A stretch of DNA of 39,712 bases from Novacetimonas hansenii JCM 7643 (GTDB lineage: Bacteria; Pseudomonadota; Alphaproteobacteria; Acetobacterales; Acetobacteraceae). Below are positions 2,860 through 14,031 of the stretch, piece after piece. The stretch lies in the NCBI RefSeq assembly GCF_000964405.1, contig NZ_BANE01000171.1, positions 1-39,712 of the forward strand, read 5' to 3'. Position 1 is the stretch's first letter, and each line of letters starts with the position of its first letter. The notes beneath the pieces are model-generated. The model did no database searches. It worked only from the letters and a program-made list of their open reading frames with translations, and had not been told where the DNA came from. The position numbers were made by a program, and so were the translations under genes.

Positions 2860-3179
2860 ACAATTTATTTGTAAATATTAATATTTTTATTGAAAATAAA
2901 AAACAAGAATTAATGAAGATGTCGCGTTCATTGTGTCCTGCACATAGTTCCATGCTGTAGCAGTCGGAGTCAGAGGGCTGCGCGGATTTTCGTGACGGGT
3001 TGAAAGGGCAGGAGAGAGTCTCCTGTCCGTCTGTCATGGAGTTTTTCTCCATGGCAACCGCTATTCCCAAGATCAGCCTGAGTTCTTCGCGCGACATTGA
3101 ACGTCGCCGCTTGCTGCGACGTCTGGCGTGATGTTGCCGACACGCCGTAACGATACGGTCGTTGTTGAAGCAGTCTATC
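2860..3179. other. intergenic stretch, AT-rich then IS3-derived debris
   Basis: The first 60 bases are strongly AT-rich. The rest has short frames in several registers with no recognisable domain. The part nearest 3180 may be the decayed continuation of the IS3 OrfB trace described next. I see no RNA gene or confident regulatory site. Confidence 0.4.
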
Positions 3180-3968: not shown

Positions 3969-4272
3969 TCATATATCAACAGGTGCCCCCTTGGCCTGCG
4001 CTTGGGCAATCAGAAAACGGTCAAACTGCTCTTTATGAGCAATGTTCATCTCGCCTGCCATGCGGGCATGAGTAATGCTGACTGGCAGTTTAACGACGTC
4101 CTGCCCAGCAATAATAGTCTCAAAATCCTGTGCCAGCAGGGCTGCCGCAGCAGCTCAGCGATGCGGAACTTGGCTTCATGGTCGAAGCTGCGCTTAGGGC
4201 CATGATGTTGACGTCATCCGTCATCGTAGCCTTGTAATTGGCCAGGCTTGCTACTTGGAAGAAATCGTCCAT
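3969..4272 (-). pseudogene. frameshifted ORF following the HTH regulator
   Basis: The ATG at 4272 follows the TGA of the HTH gene directly (TGAATG). The start frame reads MDDFFQVASLANYKATM, TDDVNIMALSA and ends early. A second frame continues FDHEAKFRIAEL, and a third LAQDFETIIAGQDVVKLPVS then MAGEMNIAHKEQFDRFLIAQA, to a TGA at 3969. The three pieces join into a plausible roughly 100-residue soluble protein, so the gene appears to carry two frameshifts. They could be true decay or sequencing error. I do not recognise the family. Its tight link suggests an accessory of the regulator/recombinase module. Confidence 0.6.
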
Positions 4273-4908
4273 TCAGGTCCCGGCTTTGCGGCAATATCTC
4301 CCTTTTCTGCGTGAGCCGACATATTCTACGAGTTGAGCTTGCTGAAGACCTCCAATGTCCCTGCGGGCGGTCTTCAGGCTTACATTCCATACAGATACAA
4401 TGTCTGTAGCTCTACATCTGCTTCCTTGCTCGAGTCTTAGCAGGAACCACCGTTGCCGTTCATTAAGTTCCCAATGATCAGGGACATTTACAGGGTCGTG
4501 TTCAAGGACATGTTCAGGGTCATTTCCTCTTACAGGCACTGCCTGTCTGCCACTTGCCACCACTCCAAGCCGATAAGCTTCTCTGGCTGCAGCAAGTGAA
4601 GAACACTCTGCCGAGTATGTCGAGAGATCAGCATTGCGTCCTGCGACCAGCCCAGAAACAAATGCCCGGATAACCGGCGACGAAACAACAAGACGCAAGA
4701 AATATATCGTATCTGGGCCATGCTGCGCTGAAAGCCAGTGTTTTACACTTTTCTCACTTGCGCCTGTCTGTCGCATAAGCCTCTTGATTATACCGTGGCT
4801 GTCTTCATGCTCTTTGCGTAACAGTTCGGCAACCGTCTTGGCATAGTTTTCACGATGCCCAAGAATACCCTTCCAAAGAGGTAGTTTCCTGCCCTTTTTC
4901 GGCAACAT
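4273..4908 (-). CDS. HTH DNA-binding protein divergent from the serine recombinase
   Basis: 211 residues, with AAGGAT upstream of the ATG. An N-terminal helical region (about 20-65: KTVAELLRKEHEDSHGIIKR, then TGASEKSVKHWLSAQHGP) looks like an HTH. The C-terminal third (about 148-205: NERQRWFLLRLEQG, ATDIVSVWNVSLKTARRDIG, LVEYVGSRRKGRY) looks like a DeoR-type winged helix. The middle is low in motifs. It diverges from the recombinase-ParB-RepB genes with about 150 bp between the likely starts, so it is a candidate repressor of the module. It could instead be an element-specific recombination directionality or replication factor; no catalytic motif is present. Confidence 0.65.
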   Translation of the reverse strand: MLPKKGRKLPLWKGILGHRENYAKTVAELLRKEHEDSHGIIKRLMRQTGASEKSVKHWLSAQHGPDTIYFLRLVVSSPVIRAFVSGLVAGRNADLSTYSAECSSLAAAREAYRLGVVASGRQAVPVRGNDPEHVLEHDPVNVPDHWELNERQRWFLLRLEQGSRCRATDIVSVWNVSLKTARRDIGGLQQAQLVEYVGSRRKGRYCRKAGT

Positions 4909-5064
4909 CTTCCGATCCTTCCGACGCTAAAATAATACTGCTTCAGAATGACGGAACGGACTCATTCTCACTGCGAGGGAAGATGTCCAGACCTTCATTA
5001 TTGGCCTCGGAAAAAGCAAAACGTGACGAGCTGGAGATTCTACGATGATGATCAGACAGGGCCG

Positions 5065-6594
5065 ATGGAACGCTTTGTTCGAGCTGCCGAATACGTCCGG
5101 ATGTCAACGGATCTTCAGAAATATTCGACCGAAAATCAGTCGGAAGCAATCAGGCAGTATGCCAAGGCACGCGGGATTAAGATCGTCCGCACGTATGCCG
5201 ATGCCGGGAAGAGTGGTCTCAAAATTGAGGGGCGCAATGCACTCAGACAACTTATTGAAGACGTTCAGGCAGGAAACACTGATTTCACATTAGTTCTTGT
5301 TTACGATGTCAGCCGTTGGGGCCGGTTTCAGGACGCGGATGAAAGTGCTTACTACGAATATATCTGTCGTCGTGCGGGTATTGCAATCGAGTATTGCGCC
5401 GAACAGTTCGAGAATGATGGGAGTCCGATCTCAACCATCGTCAAGGGCGTTAAGCGTGCCATGGCTGGTGAATATAGCCGTGAACTTTTTACCAAAGTAT
5501 TTGCAGGTCAGGGAAGGTTGATCGAGAAGGGGTATCGTCAGGGTGGGCCTGCTGGGTTTGGCTTGCGTCGAACCCTTATTGATGAGAACGGCACCATCAA
5601 GGGCATTCTTGGGCAGGGCGAACATAAGAGTATCCAGACTGACCGCGTTATCCTGACGCCCGGTCCGATCGAGGAAATCAATCTGGTCCGCACCATCTAT
5701 CAGTCTTTCGTTTATCAGAAACGTAGCGAGAGCGAGATCGCCGACGACCTCAATAGACGTGGCATTTTGACAGATCGTGGACGTCTCTGGACCAGAGGAA
5801 CAGTACATCAATTACTGATCAATGAGAAATATATCGGCGACAACGTATGGAATCGCCGCTCCTTCAAGCTAAAGAAGAAACGAGTTCGAAATGAACCGGA
5901 GATGTGGATCAAAGCGGAAAATGCATTCGAAGCCATCGTCGAGCGTGAGTTATTTGAATCTGCAAGAAACATCATCAATACGCGCTCTTTCCGTCTGACT
6001 GATGAAGAGATGCTGCATTCCTTGAAGGAACTCTATCACCAGAAAGGCCTATTATCGGGTATAATCATTGACGAATGTGATGACTTGCCTTCCAGCGGCG
6101 CCTATAGCGCCCGTTTTGGCAGCTTGCTCCGTGCCTATCATCTTGTCGGGTTCAAGCCGGATCGTGACTATCGCTATATCGCGATAAACCGTGAACTACG
6201 CAGACTGTATCCAAAAATCATTCGACAGATAATCACTGAATTGCGGATCAAAGGAAGTGATGTATGGCAGACTCCGGAGAATGATCGCATCGTCGTCAAT
6301 GACGAATTCAGTCTTTCCGTGACAATAGCGCGCTGTATAGAAACATCCACCGGACTGCTGCGCTGGAAAATGCATTTCGATAGCTCACTCATACCCGACA
6401 TTACGATCGTCGTGCGTATGGACAGCGCCAATCGTAAACCTCTGGACTATTATTTATTTCCACGCATCGACATATTTTCCGGAAAGCTCCACCTATCGGA
6501 AGAAAACAGTCTTGCTCTTGATGCCTATCGTTTCGACAATCTTGAACTCCTATATGATATCGCCACTCCTATTTCCATTGTGGAGGTCGCCTGA
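5065..6594 (+). CDS. large serine recombinase
   Basis: 509 residues from the ATG at 5065. An upstream ATG at 4948 would add 39 residues unlike any recombinase, so I prefer 5065, where the conserved AAEYVRMSTDLQKYS block follows at once. Ser14 of YVRMSTD is the expected nucleophile. GKSGL and VYDVSRWGR supply the other resolvase-domain signatures. The recombinase domain follows (EINLVRTIYQSFV, ESEIADDLNRRGILTDRGR, LLINEKYIGDNVWNRRS). The last ~170 residues lack the usual zinc ribbon but contain SSGAYSARFGSLLRAYHLVG, resembling a homing-endonuclease-associated DNA-binding repeat. The TGA overlaps the next start (TGATG). It probably integrates or excises its host element; the attachment site is unknown. 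Confidence 0.85.
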   Translation: MERFVRAAEYVRMSTDLQKYSTENQSEAIRQYAKARGIKIVRTYADAGKSGLKIEGRNALRQLIEDVQAGNTDFTLVLVYDVSRWGRFQDADESAYYEYICRRAGIAIEYCAEQFENDGSPISTIVKGVKRAMAGEYSRELFTKVFAGQGRLIEKGYRQGGPAGFGLRRTLIDENGTIKGILGQGEHKSIQTDRVILTPGPIEEINLVRTIYQSFVYQKRSESEIADDLNRRGILTDRGRLWTRGTVHQLLINEKYIGDNVWNRRSFKLKKKRVRNEPEMWIKAENAFEAIVERELFESARNIINTRSFRLTDEEMLHSLKELYHQKGLLSGIIIDECDDLPSSGAYSARFGSLLRAYHLVGFKPDRDYRYIAINRELRRLYPKIIRQIITELRIKGSDVWQTPENDRIVVNDEFSLSVTIARCIETSTGLLRWKMHFDSSLIPDITIVVRMDSANRKPLDYYLFPRIDIFSGKLHLSEENSLALDAYRFDNLELLYDIATPISIVEVA

Positions 6595-7493
6595 TGTCTG
6601 TCATTCGTCCAAGCAGGATTGAAATGATCCCCATTAGCCAGATTACAGTCGTAAATCCACGCGCCCGCAACAAACGCCAGCATCGGGAAATTGTTAACAA
6701 TATCGAAGCTATCGGTTTGAAACGGCCCATCACCGTAAGTCGCCGAGAGACCGCCAATGGTCCAAGATATGACCTCGTTTGCGGCGAAGGTCGGTTGGAA
6801 GCCTTTCAGATGCTCGGCCAGCCAGATATCCCAGCAGTTGTCATCAAGGCGAGCGAGAGCGAGTGTCTCGTCATGAGCTTGATTGAAAATATCGCCCGAC
6901 GTACACCGCGCCCCATTGATCTCATGCGCGAGGTCGGCGCATTACGATCACGCGGTTATAGTGATACGGCAATCGGTAAAAAAATCGGTGCCGGTGCCTC
7001 CTGGGTTAATATGGCTGCTTCTCTCCTTGAACGTGGTGAGGAACGGCTTCTGACCGCAGTCGAAACCGGTCTTATTCCGATTACTCTGGCAATGGAGATT
7101 TCCCGGGCTGAAACAGAAGAAGCCCAGAACCTACTTCTTGATGCCTATGAAACGGGTAAGCTGAGGGGCAAGAAGCTGGCAGCAGTTCGGCGAATGCTCG
7201 AGATGCGCTTGCAAAGCCAACGTAAAGGTCTGCCAACAGGGCAGTTAGGACGTAAAACGAGCAGTCGTAGAATGACAGCCGCTGATCTAATGCAGGTCTA
7301 TCAACGGGAGGCCGAAAAGCAGCGTCTGTTGGTCAAGAAGTCGGATTTTACTCAGACACGACTTTTGTTCATTGTTGAAGCCTTGAAGGATCTTCTGGCA
7401 AATGATGGCTTTATTAACCTGCTCAGAGCCGAGGGACTGGCGATCATGCCTCGTGGCCTAACGGTTAGAATATCGGGAAACGAGCATGACTGA
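6594..7493 (+). CDS. ParB/RepB-like partition protein (first of pair)
   Basis: 299 residues, starting in the recombinase stop (TGATG). The N-terminal ParB domain shows ISQITVVNPRARNK, AIGLKRPITV, the CGEGRLEAFQMLG block equivalent to ParB GERRxxA, and SLIENIARRTPRPID. A central HTH follows (YSDTAIGKKIGAGASWVNMA). Then comes a helical RepB-like region and a basic linker (RKTSSRRMTA). The ParB nucleotide-binding signature is degenerate (GEGR for GERR). There is no ParA ATPase nearby, so classical segregation is doubtful. The overlap with the recombinase suggests joint action on the same DNA site, for example in synapsis, target choice or regulation. Confidence 0.82.
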   Translation: MSVIRPSRIEMIPISQITVVNPRARNKRQHREIVNNIEAIGLKRPITVSRRETANGPRYDLVCGEGRLEAFQMLGQPDIPAVVIKASESECLVMSLIENIARRTPRPIDLMREVGALRSRGYSDTAIGKKIGAGASWVNMAASLLERGEERLLTAVETGLIPITLAMEISRAETEEAQNLLLDAYETGKLRGKKLAAVRRMLEMRLQSQRKGLPTGQLGRKTSSRRMTAADLMQVYQREAEKQRLLVKKSDFTQTRLLFIVEALKDLLANDGFINLLRAEGLAIMPRGLTVRISGNEHD

Positions 7494-8424
7494 TGAAGTG
7501 ACCACTCCAGGGCATAGCCGTATTCATATGGCTTTCGGCATGGATTTCCTCACGATTCCTGTTGCCTCAATCATTCCACTCAAGACATTGCCGCCTGATA
7601 TTAGATTGAGCCGCACATATTCACAGATCTTGAACTCCATAAAAGCGATCGGACACCCGATAGAATCCCCGGCGGTTACGCCAGATACAACGAATGCTGA
7701 ACGATGGTTCCTACTCGACGGTCATTTAAGAATTGAAGCCATGAAAGAACTCGGCTTCACAGAAGTCGAATGTCTTCTGGCTCCTGATGATGATACCTAT
7801 ACCTACAATAAACGGGTCAATCGTATACCACCGATCCAGGAACATCGGATGATCGCACGCGCCATGGAGCGCGGAGTATCATCGTCTGATATCGCTACCG
7901 CACTCAATGTTCAGGTAGAAGCGGTATTGAGGCGTTTCCGGCTACTGGACGGTATCAGTCCCGAAGCCGCGGAAATGCTGAAAGATACCCCCTGCTCAAT
8001 GAAAGTATTCGATATTTTACGCCAGATGACGGCTGTACGACAGATCGAATCCGCTGATCTCATGATTGGCCAGAACAACTTCACAGTCATGTTCGCCAGA
8101 GCTTTACGGGCCGCGACGTCAGAAAATCAGCTAGTACCGAACAAAAGAGGAAAAAAAGAGGGTAGAGCGACACCATCAGGACAGCAGATTGCTCGTATGG
8201 AACGAGAACTCGCGGCACTTCAGACACAAGTAAAATCTGTCGAGGAAACCTACGGCATTGATAATCTGCATTTGACCGTGGCACGTGGCTATATCACCAA
8301 ACTCCTTGCAAACAATAGGATAGTACGTTGGATGGAAACCCATCAACAGGATTACCTTTGTGAATTTCAGAAGATCGCTGAAACCGACCCGCTTGGTTCG
8401 ATTGCTAAAGAAACGAACACCTGA
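7486..8424 (+). CDS. ParB-N / RepB-C plasmid partition protein (second of pair)
   Basis: 312 residues, overlapping the previous gene by 8 nt. The ParB-like N-domain includes FLLDGHLRIEAMKELGF (the GxxR-A block). It is followed by RIPPIQEHRMIARAMERGVS, an HTH (SSDIATALNVQVEAVLRRF), and LMIGQNNFTVMFARALRAAT. The last block is characteristic of the RepB partition C-domain. The C-terminal region is coiled-coil-like (RMERELAALQTQVKSVEETY). It differs from the first protein beyond the shared fold, so the two may form a heteromer rather than be a recent duplication. It is the last gene of the three-gene overlap; the next 180 bp hold no gene. Confidence 0.82.
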   Translation: MTDEVTTPGHSRIHMAFGMDFLTIPVASIIPLKTLPPDIRLSRTYSQILNSIKAIGHPIESPAVTPDTTNAERWFLLDGHLRIEAMKELGFTEVECLLAPDDDTYTYNKRVNRIPPIQEHRMIARAMERGVSSSDIATALNVQVEAVLRRFRLLDGISPEAAEMLKDTPCSMKVFDILRQMTAVRQIESADLMIGQNNFTVMFARALRAATSENQLVPNKRGKKEGRATPSGQQIARMERELAALQTQVKSVEETYGIDNLHLTVARGYITKLLANNRIVRWMETHQQDYLCEFQKIAETDPLGSIAKETNT

Positions 8425-8608
8425 ATTAGAAAATGGGGCCCCTGACCCGATAAGCGCGGAGATCATGGGAAAATCTACACTGTGGGATGGATCAAGCATG
8501 GAGGGGGAAAGGCGGCGAACCTGCGTGATGCCTACTAGGCGCTGGCTGCATTCATGGATTCTCTTTGATTTGCAATTCTGCTTCAAGGCTGTTGATGGAG
8601 GGTAAGCC

Positions 8609-9273
8609 TTGAGCATACGGACATTGACAGATAAGTAATGGAGCCGGATTGAAGGCCATATTGTGGACGGTCGGCAATACAGTGCGCTGGTGGGCTGCCG
8701 GATGTATTTGGAAAATGGATTGCAGCCCGCGTCCGTTTTCAATGTTGGTGACATTCCGGGGGCTGGTAAAGGCTTTTCCATACTTTAGCTGATACCACGG
8801 ACTTCGAACACACCCTGATCGACAGTAATATTTTGAAAGTTTATGCTGGTGCGACTGGTGCGACTGGTGCGACTGGTGCGACTGGTGCGCTGAATCTACC
8901 ACTATCGACCGTTCATGTGGCAGGCTCACGATCCGAGCTGCACGCCTGTCGTCGATGCGATTTGCCCTAGGTCGAGGCTCTTCTGTCCGGTTTACAGGGC
9001 GTCGGCCATGTCATCGCCAATACCGCTTACGATGCAGATCCTCTACGTGCCTTCATAGCTGATGATCTCGGGGCAACCGCATAGATCAAAGCCAATCCCA
9101 GCGCCACGACCATGTCCCCAATGAGTTGAAACCTCTATAAGAAGCGCCATCAGGTCGAATATTTCTTAAATAAAATCAAATGCTTCCGAAGAATCTCCCT
9201 GCGATGCAAGAAAGCTGTCCCTGCATTTATGAGGATCGTTCACCTCGCATGCGCGATGATCTGGCGATGCTGA
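8609..9273 (+). pseudogene. degenerate IS5-family transposase
   Basis: The first part reads SIRTLTDK-stop-WSRIEGHIVDGRQ, like the N-terminus of IS5-type transposases, in one frame. From 8791 a second frame holds all three DDE landmarks: FEHTLIDSN (D), GHVIANTAYDAD (D) and RHQVEYFLNKIK (E), ending VHLACAMIW. In-frame stops at 8968, 9082 and 9127, plus the frameshift, make it inactive. A 9-bp tandem repeat has expanded inside it just after the first catalytic Asp. Confidence 0.8.
8846..8890 (+). repeat. 9-bp tandem repeat, five units
   Basis: CTGGTGCGA is repeated four times exactly from 8846 to 8881, and a fifth copy differs in its last base (8882-8890). In the dead transposase frame it encodes a Gly-Ala-Thr repeat. 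Because the period is a multiple of three, changes in copy number would not shift the frame. Confidence 0.92.
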
Positions 9274-9302
9274 ATGCAGGCAACACTAGGGATTTATGCA
9301 AT

Positions 9303-10704: not shown

Positions 10705-13700
10705 TCATGATACGGCTTCTAATGGATTATGCCCCATCCATTCCTCCGGAGAGATATCGGGGAATGAGTCGGCGGCATGCGCGAAAACTCCTGCGCCTCG
10801 CCATTCTTCATGATTTCCGACGATATAGAGTACACGCTTTGCCCTTGTCGCGGCGACATTGAGCAAATTGGGCGTTCCACCGGCCCATGTCCGCGATCCT
10901 GGCCGTGCGCCGCGTCCAGCCCCCAGCATGAGGATAACAGCCTCAGCTTCTTTACCCTGGAAGGTATGGACAGTGCCGACATGACGGTCAATCCAGTCCT
11001 CCCGATCAGTTGGATTCATTCCGGGGAGGATGGCTGGTGTCCGCACCAGCAATTGACGTAGACGCGTTGCTGGCACACGGAAGGGGGAAATGACATACAG
11101 GTCCGGTCCCTTGGGCTGCATCCGGCAGAGTTCGGCAATCGCAGTGGTAATAAGTTGCCCTTCTGCCTCGACCCACTTGCCACTGGAAGGTGCATCCACA
11201 TCGATCCATGCACTTGGGCCAAGTTTCTCGCGGATGGCGGATTGGCCTGCGCCTGTGGCATGGACCATACGTTCAGCATATGCAATCCGGTTGGCAAGGT
11301 CGAACATCGGTTTTTCACAGCGCCGATGTACAAGCAGGGGCATGCCAGTATCCCGGCTGGTTGGGCCTCCCGGCACCGGGTTCTCGACCGGAAAACGCCC
11401 CTGGATAATGCTTGCACGATCAGCCAGAACCTGTGCCGAGACCGCAGGTGCCGCCCAGGGAGTGGGGAGCAGGCCATTGCCTTGAAAGATCAGGGCGGTT
11501 GTATGCTGCGGTGTGGTGACTACTGGTTCGATTTGCAGTGGATCGCCAATCACGACGGCCCGACGGGCGCGCCAGAGGGCACCGACCGCCTGCTGTGGAG
11601 CGGCCTGGCCTGCTTCGTCAATCAGCAACCATCCAATTGATGCTTCTCGGAAGGTCTGGAACATCCGGCCGATCGATGCAAAGGTCGATGATACGACAGG
11701 CACCAGCAGGAAAAAGTATCCCCAGTCCTGAGGGCTCGCATTTGCCGCGCCATTGACAACCGCGTTCAGTGCGCGCTTGAGGGGTTGGGCGCCAGCGGCC
11801 ACAAAGGCATGATGCAGGCGAACCGCTGCGATAAACAGTTCGTCGCGTGCATGGCGAAATTGCCCGCCATTCCATGGGCTGCTTTTTTGGAACAGATCGT
11901 CTGGCTGCGACCAGAACCCAGGACCGGGGAAACAGTTTCCAAGCTCCTGTTGGCCTTTTTCCAGTTGTTGTCCAAGCCGCGCAACTTTGGCCTGCAATGT
12001 TTCCAGGCGCGCTTTCGCGTCCGCATATTGTTCAGAAAACCGCGTCTCTTCGGCTGTTGCGATGTCAAGGCGCGCCCTGGCATCATGGGTTATCCGCTGC
12101 GCTTCTTCAAGTCGTACAACCTGTTCGCGGATTCCGCTTTCATGCGTCTTCCACGCCTGAGTGCGCAACATTTTTGAGAAAAAGGAGGGTTGAACGGAAG
12201 TCAGGGCGGTGAGTTTGCCAGCTTCAAGCCCTTCAATGCGTTCGGCTTCATCCACCTGACCTTTGGCCACCATTGCTGCGTGCGATGCAGCCTCATGATC
12301 CAGCCGGAACTGTTCTTGCCTCTCGTCAGCCTGTGGGAGTTCCGTTTCCGTCTTACGCAGGGCCTCTCCCGCCTGGGACAGTGCAACCAGTTCGTTCCTC
12401 AGCCTTCGGCTATGGTCAAGGGCCTGCCGGAATGCGTCCCTGGCTTCCCGCCACTGTGCCATGGCCTGCGGATTTCTTGGCGGCGGCTCAACTTCCGCCA
12501 ATTTGCCTGGCCGACGTTCCTTAAGATGTTGCGCATTCGGCCATGCTGCGCGATTCAACCAGTCGTTCAGGCCCCATTCCTCGTTCCACCAGACACGGTC
12601 GAAGAATTGCTGCCGGTTTTTTGCCCGACCCAAGCGGGCTGCAATCAGGCCCCAGGCCCGCTTTTCAGGTTCGGCGTCTTGCTTCAACCCGAGCAGATGG
12701 GTCGCAGTCCGCCCAAAATGATCGAGGCCTTCATCCCGCCAGACAGATTTGTCGAGTGCTTTCTCGCGAACGGGGAGTTCAAGGCTGATATTTTCGACCG
12801 CGGCATTGTTACTGCTGGCGACCACGATGGCAAAATCCATCAGGTCGAGATCCCCGACACCATCAGCCGGATTTTCAATATCGGCCAGTTTTTCTGCGCG
12901 TGTAATCATCACCTGTGCAACCAGGTCGCGCAGCAGGGTTGTTTTTCCCGTGCCGGGAGGGCCGTTGATGGCGGCAAGACCTTCCGTCGCCAGATCACGG
13001 GTGATGACGTTGACCGCTGCCTGTTGCAGAAGGGTCAATGGATGGAGCCCGGGGCCGGGCCAGCGGCCAAGGGGAAAAAGTTCTGGCGACAGGAGGGCAG
13101 CCAGTTGCGTGCGATCGGTCAGCGCGTCCCAAGGGGCGACAGGCGGGTTCAGGCCAAGATAGGCGGCGAGGGCGGCTGGAAGAGTATCCGCATCACGCAG
13201 GGCGCGACCAAGGTCGGGAAGGTAGAAGCTTGAGAGCAAGTCACCATTCGGAGCGTTGACTTTCTCGCTCTCGATCACGCATGGCACAGGGATCCAGAGA
13301 TCGTTTGGCACAGATAACGCCCCGGCGAGTTCATCAGCAACGCCATGCAGGTCCGTCCATGTCAGGGAGCGCGGTTTGCCTTCACTGCCGCATGGGGTGA
13401 GAAGGTCGGCAAAACGCGATTGCAGGGCTTCTGATTGACCGTCCCATTCTGCCAGGCCGGCAGGGCTGCCACCATCAAGAATATGTCCAACACCCCAGGC
13501 AAAACTGGCAATGGCCAGTGTATCTGGCACCATGATCCCCCATTCGTCGAGTACAACGCTGGCGGCGATCACGTTGCCTTTTTTGGTGGATCGATCAGTT
13601 TTGTCGTCTTCATCGGGGTCGTTTTCGCCAAGGGCGGAATTCAGGCGTTCGAATGATGCGCGGGTCGGCATAGCGCCGAGAATGACATTATACCAACGTC

Positions 13701-14004
13701 GCTTAACACGCGGTTTTTTGGCAGTTTGCGACTCTGTGGTCTTCTTCCGATCACTCTCAACAGACGCGACCGGAGGCTCCGGGGAGGGATCTGGCAGGAC
13801 AGGCCATGGTGTGGAATCGTCCGGCTGTGGTGGATGCCACAGGTCCGGGCCGTCTGCTGCCTCGGTTCTCCGGTTTTTGATGCGGCCTTCGCGATCCACG
13901 GCTATGTCGTTCCAGCCCGCCTCCCGCGTGGCTTGCGGGGTCAGGACTTCCAGCGCAATCCAGGAGCGCAGGACACGGCGGGCTGTATCTGGTGTGACGG
14001 TCAT
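10705..14004 (-). CDS. UPF1/DNA2-like superfamily 1 helicase
   Basis: 1099 residues from the ATG at 14004; an in-frame TTG at 14031 would add nine, and the numbers below count from that TTG. Motif I is GPPGTGKTT (357-365), motif II LLIDEAGQA (802-810), motif III GDPLQIEP (829-836), motif V HTFQGKEAE (1022-1030) and motif VI NVAATRAKR (1058-1066). All are intact, so the ATPase should be active. About 430 residues separate motifs I and II, including a charged, coiled-coil-rich stretch at 520-700. The N-terminal 330 residues have no domain I recognise, and no nuclease motif is visible. The gene stands alone between an IS fragment and a sugar island. Helicases of this class (COG1112-like) occur in antiphage systems such as Mokosh, so defence is possible but unproven. 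Confidence 0.85.
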   Translation of the reverse strand: MTVTPDTARRVLRSWIALEVLTPQATREAGWNDIAVDREGRIKNRRTEAADGPDLWHPPQPDDSTPWPVLPDPSPEPPVASVESDRKKTTESQTAKKPRVKRRWYNVILGAMPTRASFERLNSALGENDPDEDDKTDRSTKKGNVIAASVVLDEWGIMVPDTLAIASFAWGVGHILDGGSPAGLAEWDGQSEALQSRFADLLTPCGSEGKPRSLTWTDLHGVADELAGALSVPNDLWIPVPCVIESEKVNAPNGDLLSSFYLPDLGRALRDADTLPAALAAYLGLNPPVAPWDALTDRTQLAALLSPELFPLGRWPGPGLHPLTLLQQAAVNVITRDLATEGLAAINGPPGTGKTTLLRDLVAQVMITRAEKLADIENPADGVGDLDLMDFAIVVASSNNAAVENISLELPVREKALDKSVWRDEGLDHFGRTATHLLGLKQDAEPEKRAWGLIAARLGRAKNRQQFFDRVWWNEEWGLNDWLNRAAWPNAQHLKERRPGKLAEVEPPPRNPQAMAQWREARDAFRQALDHSRRLRNELVALSQAGEALRKTETELPQADERQEQFRLDHEAASHAAMVAKGQVDEAERIEGLEAGKLTALTSVQPSFFSKMLRTQAWKTHESGIREQVVRLEEAQRITHDARARLDIATAEETRFSEQYADAKARLETLQAKVARLGQQLEKGQQELGNCFPGPGFWSQPDDLFQKSSPWNGGQFRHARDELFIAAVRLHHAFVAAGAQPLKRALNAVVNGAANASPQDWGYFFLLVPVVSSTFASIGRMFQTFREASIGWLLIDEAGQAAPQQAVGALWRARRAVVIGDPLQIEPVVTTPQHTTALIFQGNGLLPTPWAAPAVSAQVLADRASIIQGRFPVENPVPGGPTSRDTGMPLLVHRRCEKPMFDLANRIAYAERMVHATGAGQSAIREKLGPSAWIDVDAPSSGKWVEAEGQLITTAIAELCRMQPKGPDLYVISPFRVPATRLRQLLVRTPAILPGMNPTDREDWIDRHVGTVHTFQGKEAEAVILMLGAGRGARPGSRTWAGGTPNLLNVAATRAKRVLYIVGNHEEWRGAGVFAHAADSFPDISPEEWMGHNPLEAVS

Positions 14005-14031
14005 AGCTGCATCTTTGCCCTCGTAACGCAA

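Follow-up and report, generated by a model that had tools for sequence, protein, structure and literature searches.

A candidate ParB-assisted serine recombination cassette with an adjoining RNA-like element in mobile elements

What does a large serine recombinase do in one operon with two ParB-like genes and no ParA beside them? The question was raised by a cassette of about 4.3 kb in the window, by which we mean the whole stretch of 39,712 nucleotides that was analysed (Novacetimonas hansenii JCM 7643, contig NZ_BANE01000171.1). The cassette contains the genes for a large serine recombinase (4948..6594, + strand, 548 aa), ParB/RepB-family protein 1 (6594..7493, + strand, 299 aa) and ParB/RepB-family protein 2 (7486..8424, + strand, 312 aa) and, divergent from these, the gene for a helix-turn-helix (HTH) regulator (4273..4908, - strand, 211 aa). 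The first-pass annotation of this DNA had described overlaps of 1 nt (recombinase and first ParB gene) and 8 nt (the two ParB genes) as well as the divergent HTH gene, and the coordinates confirm all three; the reading frames of the protein genes are open. A fifth part, an RNA-like element directly after the last stop codon, had been overlooked. In the window it is represented by a decayed copy of a conserved structured element (8433..8540, + strand), of which the 3' terminal hairpin is gone. The function that we infer for the cassette, with a probability of roughly 45%, is that of a ParB-assisted serine recombination module of mobile elements, which in many relatives has its own RNA.

A scan of named genomes yielded at least 77 loci, a sample that is biased to relatives of the window's protein. 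Co-occurrence was counted over the 70 loci whose match to the first ParB covered 200 residues or more, using the loci with room as denominators. On this basis the recombinase was present in 68 of 68 loci, the second ParB in 67 of 67 and a homologue of the HTH gene in 64 of 67. A search with one plasmid ParA query (E 1e-6) identified ParA in none of the 77 loci. Joint occurrence is the rule and a ParA is no usual companion, which is the opposite of what the first-pass annotation had expected of plasmid debris. The recombinase and both ParB genes were present in identical order in all 23 loci compared, these having been picked by their ParB match. The overlap of recombinase and first ParB gene was 1 nt in 63 of the 65 measurable loci, that of the two ParB genes 8 nt in 49 of 68; since both overlaps recur in named relatives, they are not due to chance. 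The search of genomes for the three-gene order, proposed beforehand, thus showed the trio to be a conserved unit in several orders, with its order kept. These genes form a real arrangement and are not plasmid debris.

Record titles of the named loci include Gluconobacter, Acetobacter, Asaia, Novosphingobium and Sphingobium, and further Rhizobium, Phenylobacterium, Nitrospirillum, Pannonibacter and one Burkholderiales MAG. Within the order of the window's host the second ParB was matched in 30 of 299 genomes, of which G049, G102, G201 and G211 by short or remote matches only. Matches to this protein were also present in 113 plasmid records, on one unverified contig only of the phage collection, and at 5 loci on viral contigs. 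The full gene set was present at 3 of the viral loci; L153 was without a detected HTH gene and L154 showed the two ParB genes only. A search confined to the open-access literature, and thus without subscription papers and preprints, turned up no paper that was recognised as a description of these genes as a set.

The recombinase of the window matched the Resolvase (PF00239) and Recombinase (PF07508) domains, as did all 26 members of the family examined. Y49, R51, S53 and R123-W124-G125-R126 were invariant in the 26 aligned recombinases; Y-x-R-x-S is the catalytic serine motif of large serine recombinases. In well-studied large serine integrases a zinc ribbon binds att DNA. The earlier observation that the tail of the window enzyme lacks this domain held up, as the recombinase zinc ribbon was matched neither in this enzyme nor in any of the 26 members, one of which weakly matched another zinc finger, zf-Mss51. 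The C-terminal region is conserved within the family and gave weak matches to HTH_62 in 9 of 26 members and to HNH_repeat in 2 of 26. For the window enzyme only resolvase-type domains exceeded the Pfam cut-off, and no IS110-family transposase domain was found.

The best sequence and fold matches were to large serine integrases. Solved structures matched included the integrases of SPbeta (SprA/YokA), Bxb1, PhiC31 and TP901-1, which have the catalytic resolvase domain, the invariant serine and the recombinase domain in common with the cassette enzyme. The model had a mean pLDDT of 70 and gave Foldseek query TM-scores of at most 0.37, and the fold matches presumably cover the catalytic and recombinase domains. 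In contrast to these integrases, the cassette enzyme has no zinc ribbon, has a different C-terminal region, and has two ParB-like genes, and often an RNA, as neighbours.

In ParB protein 1, Pfam matched both ParB_N and RepB, and in protein 2 RepB alone was above the cut-off, its N domain being ParB-like. At the position of the nucleotide box we read an intact CGEGR in protein 1 and a degenerate LDGHLR (box residues DGHLR) in protein 2. An intact GERR/GEGR nucleotide box is a feature of ParB CTPases. The motifs had initially been assigned to the two proteins in reverse and incompletely; the RepB domain is present in one of them as described, and the other carries it as well. The predicted fold of the second ParB was ParB/Noc/KorB-like, in line with its sequence matches, which are also ParB-like; its model had a pTM of 0.42 with Foldseek query TM-scores of about 0.3, and like that of the recombinase is only moderate.

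ParB_N and/or RepB domains and a predicted ParB-like fold are shared with the ParB/Noc/KorB/RepB family, from which the cassette proteins differ by their tandem arrangement, by one degenerate nucleotide box, by the fact that no ParA was found, and by their operon with a recombinase. ParABS and repABC loci likewise have the ParB_N and RepB domains in common with the cassette, but the ParA-type ATPase was not found beside it in any of the 77 loci. The suggestion that the ParB pair serves the recombinase, not segregation, fits the strict co-occurrence and the absent zinc ribbon; the more specific roles proposed with it, in binding, synapsis or immunity, stay conjecture. A DeoR-like HTH lies near the C terminus of the divergently encoded regulator, under the Pfam cut-off. 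This protein gave one weak PADLOC match (E 0.0024), and no PADLOC model matched the recombinase or either ParB protein.

The RNA-like element is approximately 130 nt long and starts 0-10 positions past the last base of the stop codon of the second ParB gene. It was present in 44 and absent from 22 of the 66 named loci with room, and occurs in Acetobacteraceae, Sphingomonadales, Rhizobiales and Rhodobacterales and on viral contigs. An alignment of 30 sequences contained 33 pairs, with 97.7% of the cells paired, and 14 pairs had changed on both sides. This number was reached by none of 500 shuffles, and slid controls gave 0-4 such pairs. In a second set of 42 copies, obtained from a search of 43 other loci and aligned by fitting to the model (the core of 3 of the 42 being identical to a first-set member), 9 pairs had changed on both sides, again reached by 0 of 500 shuffles. 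The fold of a single copy was no more stable than shuffles (z -0.09), and the case for an RNA therefore rests on covariation.

Conservation of the element can exceed that of the neighbouring protein: the copies of L044 and of the viral contig L151 have 90% identity over 113 nt, versus 49% for the second ParB proteins of these two loci. At an AT-rich viral locus (36.5% GC) a divergent copy has a GC content of 59%. Two regions, one of 6 kb with a full copy (E up to 1) and the window (gathering score), were searched against Rfam without a match, and the element has the look of an RNA family not yet described. A variable loop that would match a target was not identified in it, and distant elements share a highly conserved core. 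The last helix of the RNA resembles a terminator and varies in sequence. A protein-coding tail is an unlikely explanation of the element, given the single-base insertions and deletions between copies (read by eye). A substitute RNA was sought downstream of the cassettes that lack the element, where the only similarity was shared by close relatives.

Copies of the RNA also occur away from the genes. The RNA model was matched in 34 of the 299 genomes of the order. By hand comparison, in which relatedness was ignored, 20 of these 34 also had a second-ParB match, against about 3 expected by chance. The same hand comparison gave 14 RNA-positive genomes without a second-ParB match, and 10 of the 30 genomes with a second-ParB match were without an RNA match. 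No ParB match was present at 18 of 30 RNA loci examined. At 11 of these 18, spread over several genera, the RNA is convergent to the 3' end of a relative of the tail-spike-like gene of L044. One genome contained 8 RNA matches (7 by the model), one of them at its full cassette. A promoter-like TANNNT box was located within 18 nt upstream of 13 of the 19 RNA copies away from a ParB gene and of 0 of the 16 copies beside one; its frequency in shuffles was 9.6%. Our reading is that the RNA would be transcribed, in the cassette as a 3'-end product of the operon and elsewhere from a gene of its own. As another possible role, an integron-type repeated site with one copy per cassette was considered. 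However, 22 of the 24 genomes behind the named loci with both cassette and RNA had exactly one RNA match, so the RNA is not a repeated cassette site.

The cassette was found in prophage-like loci, on plasmids and in genomic islands, and some copies adjoin phage-tail-like genes. Its neighbours include restriction-modification, cysteine-desulfurase/DUF4007, helicase/PLD and toxin-antitoxin genes. On plasmids it lies in accessory regions; one such spot, on a Sphingobium plasmid, is occupied in other plasmids by arsenic-resistance or Na+/H+ antiporter genes. The cassette is also present in islands next to guaA (named from our reading of the sequence). The gene order in L164, L165, L168 and L171 is guaA, integrase, AlpA, HTH, recombinase, ParB, ParB, RNA region and large convergent genes. 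The integrase of these islands is a P4-type tyrosine integrase (Pfam on L165: Phage_integrase and AlpA), and the cargo of the L168 island includes helicase and PLD by Pfam. Because such islands have a tyrosine integrase of their own, the cassette is not always the (main) integrase.

The edges of the cassette were examined by counting where homology ends in pairs of relatives, which are not independent of each other. For 265 pairs with the RNA, 197 right-hand ends were located at -20 to +120 bp around the RNA 3' end; another 20 were slightly inside it, and 48 were at more than 300 bp. For 32 pairs without the RNA, 20 right-hand ends fell between -20 and +60 bp relative to the stop codon of the second ParB gene. 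On the left-hand side the largest class (178 of 436 ends) was at 2200-2320 bp upstream of the first ParB gene, approximately at the stop of the HTH gene, and 170 of the 436 ends were inside the cassette. As homology often stops at the edges, the cassette often forms a unit whose neighbours vary on either side. Homologous recombination within a conserved module would also leave sharp edges.

Comparison of pSF1 and pSCLO_4, a plasmid pair of which one has the cassette, placed the left junction in an 8-bp sequence; the right side was blurred by backbone exchange. The same 8-bp sequence is present at the left edge in L054, in L146 with another neighbour and in L147 with the same neighbour. As a recombination trace it is suggestive only. 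The comparison with empty sites that had been proposed to find attachment sequences did not recover them: in the chromosomal searches, which covered the flanks of the window, of the prophage and of G241, both edges of one insertion were never obtained, and neither a recombination product nor a clean att pair was recovered. Insertion at tRNA 3' ends is typical of tyrosine integrases. Some loci adjoin tRNA 3'-end fragments (seen by eye). A tRNA as target was rejected, with complete tRNA genes at 1 of 25 and 3 of 60 loci; in L216 a complete tRNA-Ala lies about 200 bp after the second ParB gene, and the other complete tRNAs are farther off.

A ParB-assisted recombination module could work as follows. 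The HTH protein would repress the divergent operon. The two ParB-like proteins would label the site of recombination and keep the recombinase there, standing in for the zinc ribbon and probably acting jointly, perhaps with nucleotide. The recombinase would then exchange or join DNA beside the cassette, by which the carrier may integrate, resolve or swap cargo. The RNA, derived from the operon 3' end, may control recombination or belong to the complex. As the role of the cassette, integration is no better a fit than carrier resolution or a swap of cargo next to the RNA.

A rather unlikely alternative is a plain phage or island integration module, in which the recombinase alone integrates, the ParB proteins are recombination directionality factors or KorB-like regulators and the RNA is an ordinary 3' UTR or terminator. 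The retained catalytic and recombinase domains agree with this, as do the presence of the transcriptional repressor KorB among the ParB fold matches and the position of the RNA at the operon 3' end with its terminator-like, changing last helix. SprB is the directionality factor of SPbeta SprA, and the integrase-RDF structures 9dxd and 9dxf were among the fold matches of the recombinase. SprA with SprB is a serine integrase with an element-encoded partner, but the partner in the cassette would be two ParB proteins and not a small factor. The internal covarying helices and strong sequence conservation of the RNA exceed what a terminator needs, and RNA copies with promoter-like boxes exist. In addition, some carriers have a separate tyrosine integrase; that of the guaA islands makes the cassette unneeded for their integration, which argues against the trio as the simple integrase of its element.

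Regulation or immunity between mobile elements, with a ParB pair that spreads and silences or excludes relatives, gene-less RNAs that regulate in trans and a minor part for the recombinase, we consider improbable. It would account for two ParB-like proteins without a ParA, for the gene-less RNA copies that adjoin tail-like genes in several of the family's genera, for the 8 matches in one genome, and for neighbours of the restriction-modification, cysteine-desulfurase/DUF4007, helicase/PLD and toxin-antitoxin types. A minor part is, however, difficult to reconcile with a recombinase that is present at every locus with room (68/68) and has invariant catalytic residues in 26 aligned members, and the lack of PADLOC matches for the recombinase and the ParB pair also speaks against this explanation.

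A bolder version of the recombination module, which must be regarded as a long shot, is an RNA-dependent serine recombinase. Here a ribonucleoprotein of the recombinase without zinc ribbon, two ParB clamps and the RNA would license or target DNA exchange, and the extra, promoter-driven RNA copies of prophages would borrow or block the machine in trans. IS110/IS1111 elements with their bridge (seek) RNA have a recombinase gene and a structured RNA at the edge of the mobile unit in common with the cassette, but the IS110 enzyme belongs to another family. A prophage-linked RNA is also shared with extrachromosomal mycobacterial prophages, which are reported to have RNA-based origins, with RNA used for replication, in a paper that also contains the term ParB (PMC7157519); the cassette differs in being located in chromosomes and plasmids beside a recombinase.

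Plasmid partition debris, with ParB/RepB genes left over from a repABC-type segregation locus, agrees with the PF07506 (RepB) match of both ParB proteins, with the many plasmid-borne copies and with truncated copies on Sinorhizobium plasmids, but is largely refuted and hardly credible, being rejected on the strict co-occurrence and the failure to find ParA in 77 loci, to which are added a fixed order with the recombinase across orders, intact frames, invariant residues and the fact that these two proteins give the only two PF07506 matches in the window's assembly.

Serine integrases are widely used genome-engineering tools, in which the zinc ribbon finds the DNA. A widespread family without zinc ribbon that is always accompanied by two ParB proteins, and often by a covarying RNA, would show that serine recombination can be targeted and regulated differently, and would extend the tasks of ParB proteins beyond segregation. 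The RNA element is the most unusual part of the cassette and is directly testable on its own merits.

In the window copy the RNA is decayed. The model R1 matched at 8433-8551 with 59.5 bits, compared with 103-149 bits in 42 named copies, and the sequence is 74% identical to the L044 element over 109 columns. The RNA is truncated at about position 8538 by a decayed insertion-sequence-like remnant (8536..9282), which matches a repeat on G000 contig 375 of the same assembly. With this decayed and cut RNA the window copy may be partly inactive. The copies in L033 and L034 show 93% DNA identity to the window over 4.3 kb. At the other end of the cassette lies a decayed remnant (3988..4220, - strand) of a putative VapC-like gene, named from the sequence, which adjoins the HTH gene in the same two close relatives.

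Genomic islands adjoining guaA (L164, L165, L168 and L171; guaA read from sequence) carried a P4-type tyrosine integrase and AlpA, followed by the cassette of HTH regulator, serine recombinase and two ParB/RepB-family genes, and then by exchangeable cargo, for example helicase and PLD proteins. Near the cassette in the window, a 1108-aa protein with AAA_11/AAA_12 helicase matches is encoded on the reverse strand (10705-14031) and is possibly island cargo. Similar copies of a short stretch at window positions 2957-3098, with 69-89% identity, occurred at other places in this assembly and in congeneric genomes.

The Sphingobium plasmids (L143-L149 and L054) shared an accessory spot, bordered by an ArdC-like gene on one side and by a DUF2493 gene on the other, which held arsenic, antiporter or cassette cargo. 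On the Sphingobium plasmid pSF1, the cassette was flanked on either side by a 75-bp repeat. In the pSymA plasmids of Sinorhizobium meliloti (L056 and L057) the ParB pair was present as truncated copies.

Two viral contigs, L153 and L154, contained a recombinase-ParB-ParB set that is more remotely related (about 28-32% identity), of which only the ParB pair was seen in L154; after the set came an ORF, one stretch of which, by eye, resembled part of the recombinase C-terminal region. Another viral locus, L152, is AT-rich (36.5% GC) yet contained a divergent, GC-rich copy of the structured RNA-like element (5741-5897), whose terminal hairpin differs considerably in sequence.

Copies of this RNA element were also found apart from the cassette, convergent to tail-spike-like genes (L102-L105, L253-L255, L257, L261, L263, L265 and L270), several of them with promoter-like boxes. 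A single genome, G127, had 8 matches to the element, part of them partial.
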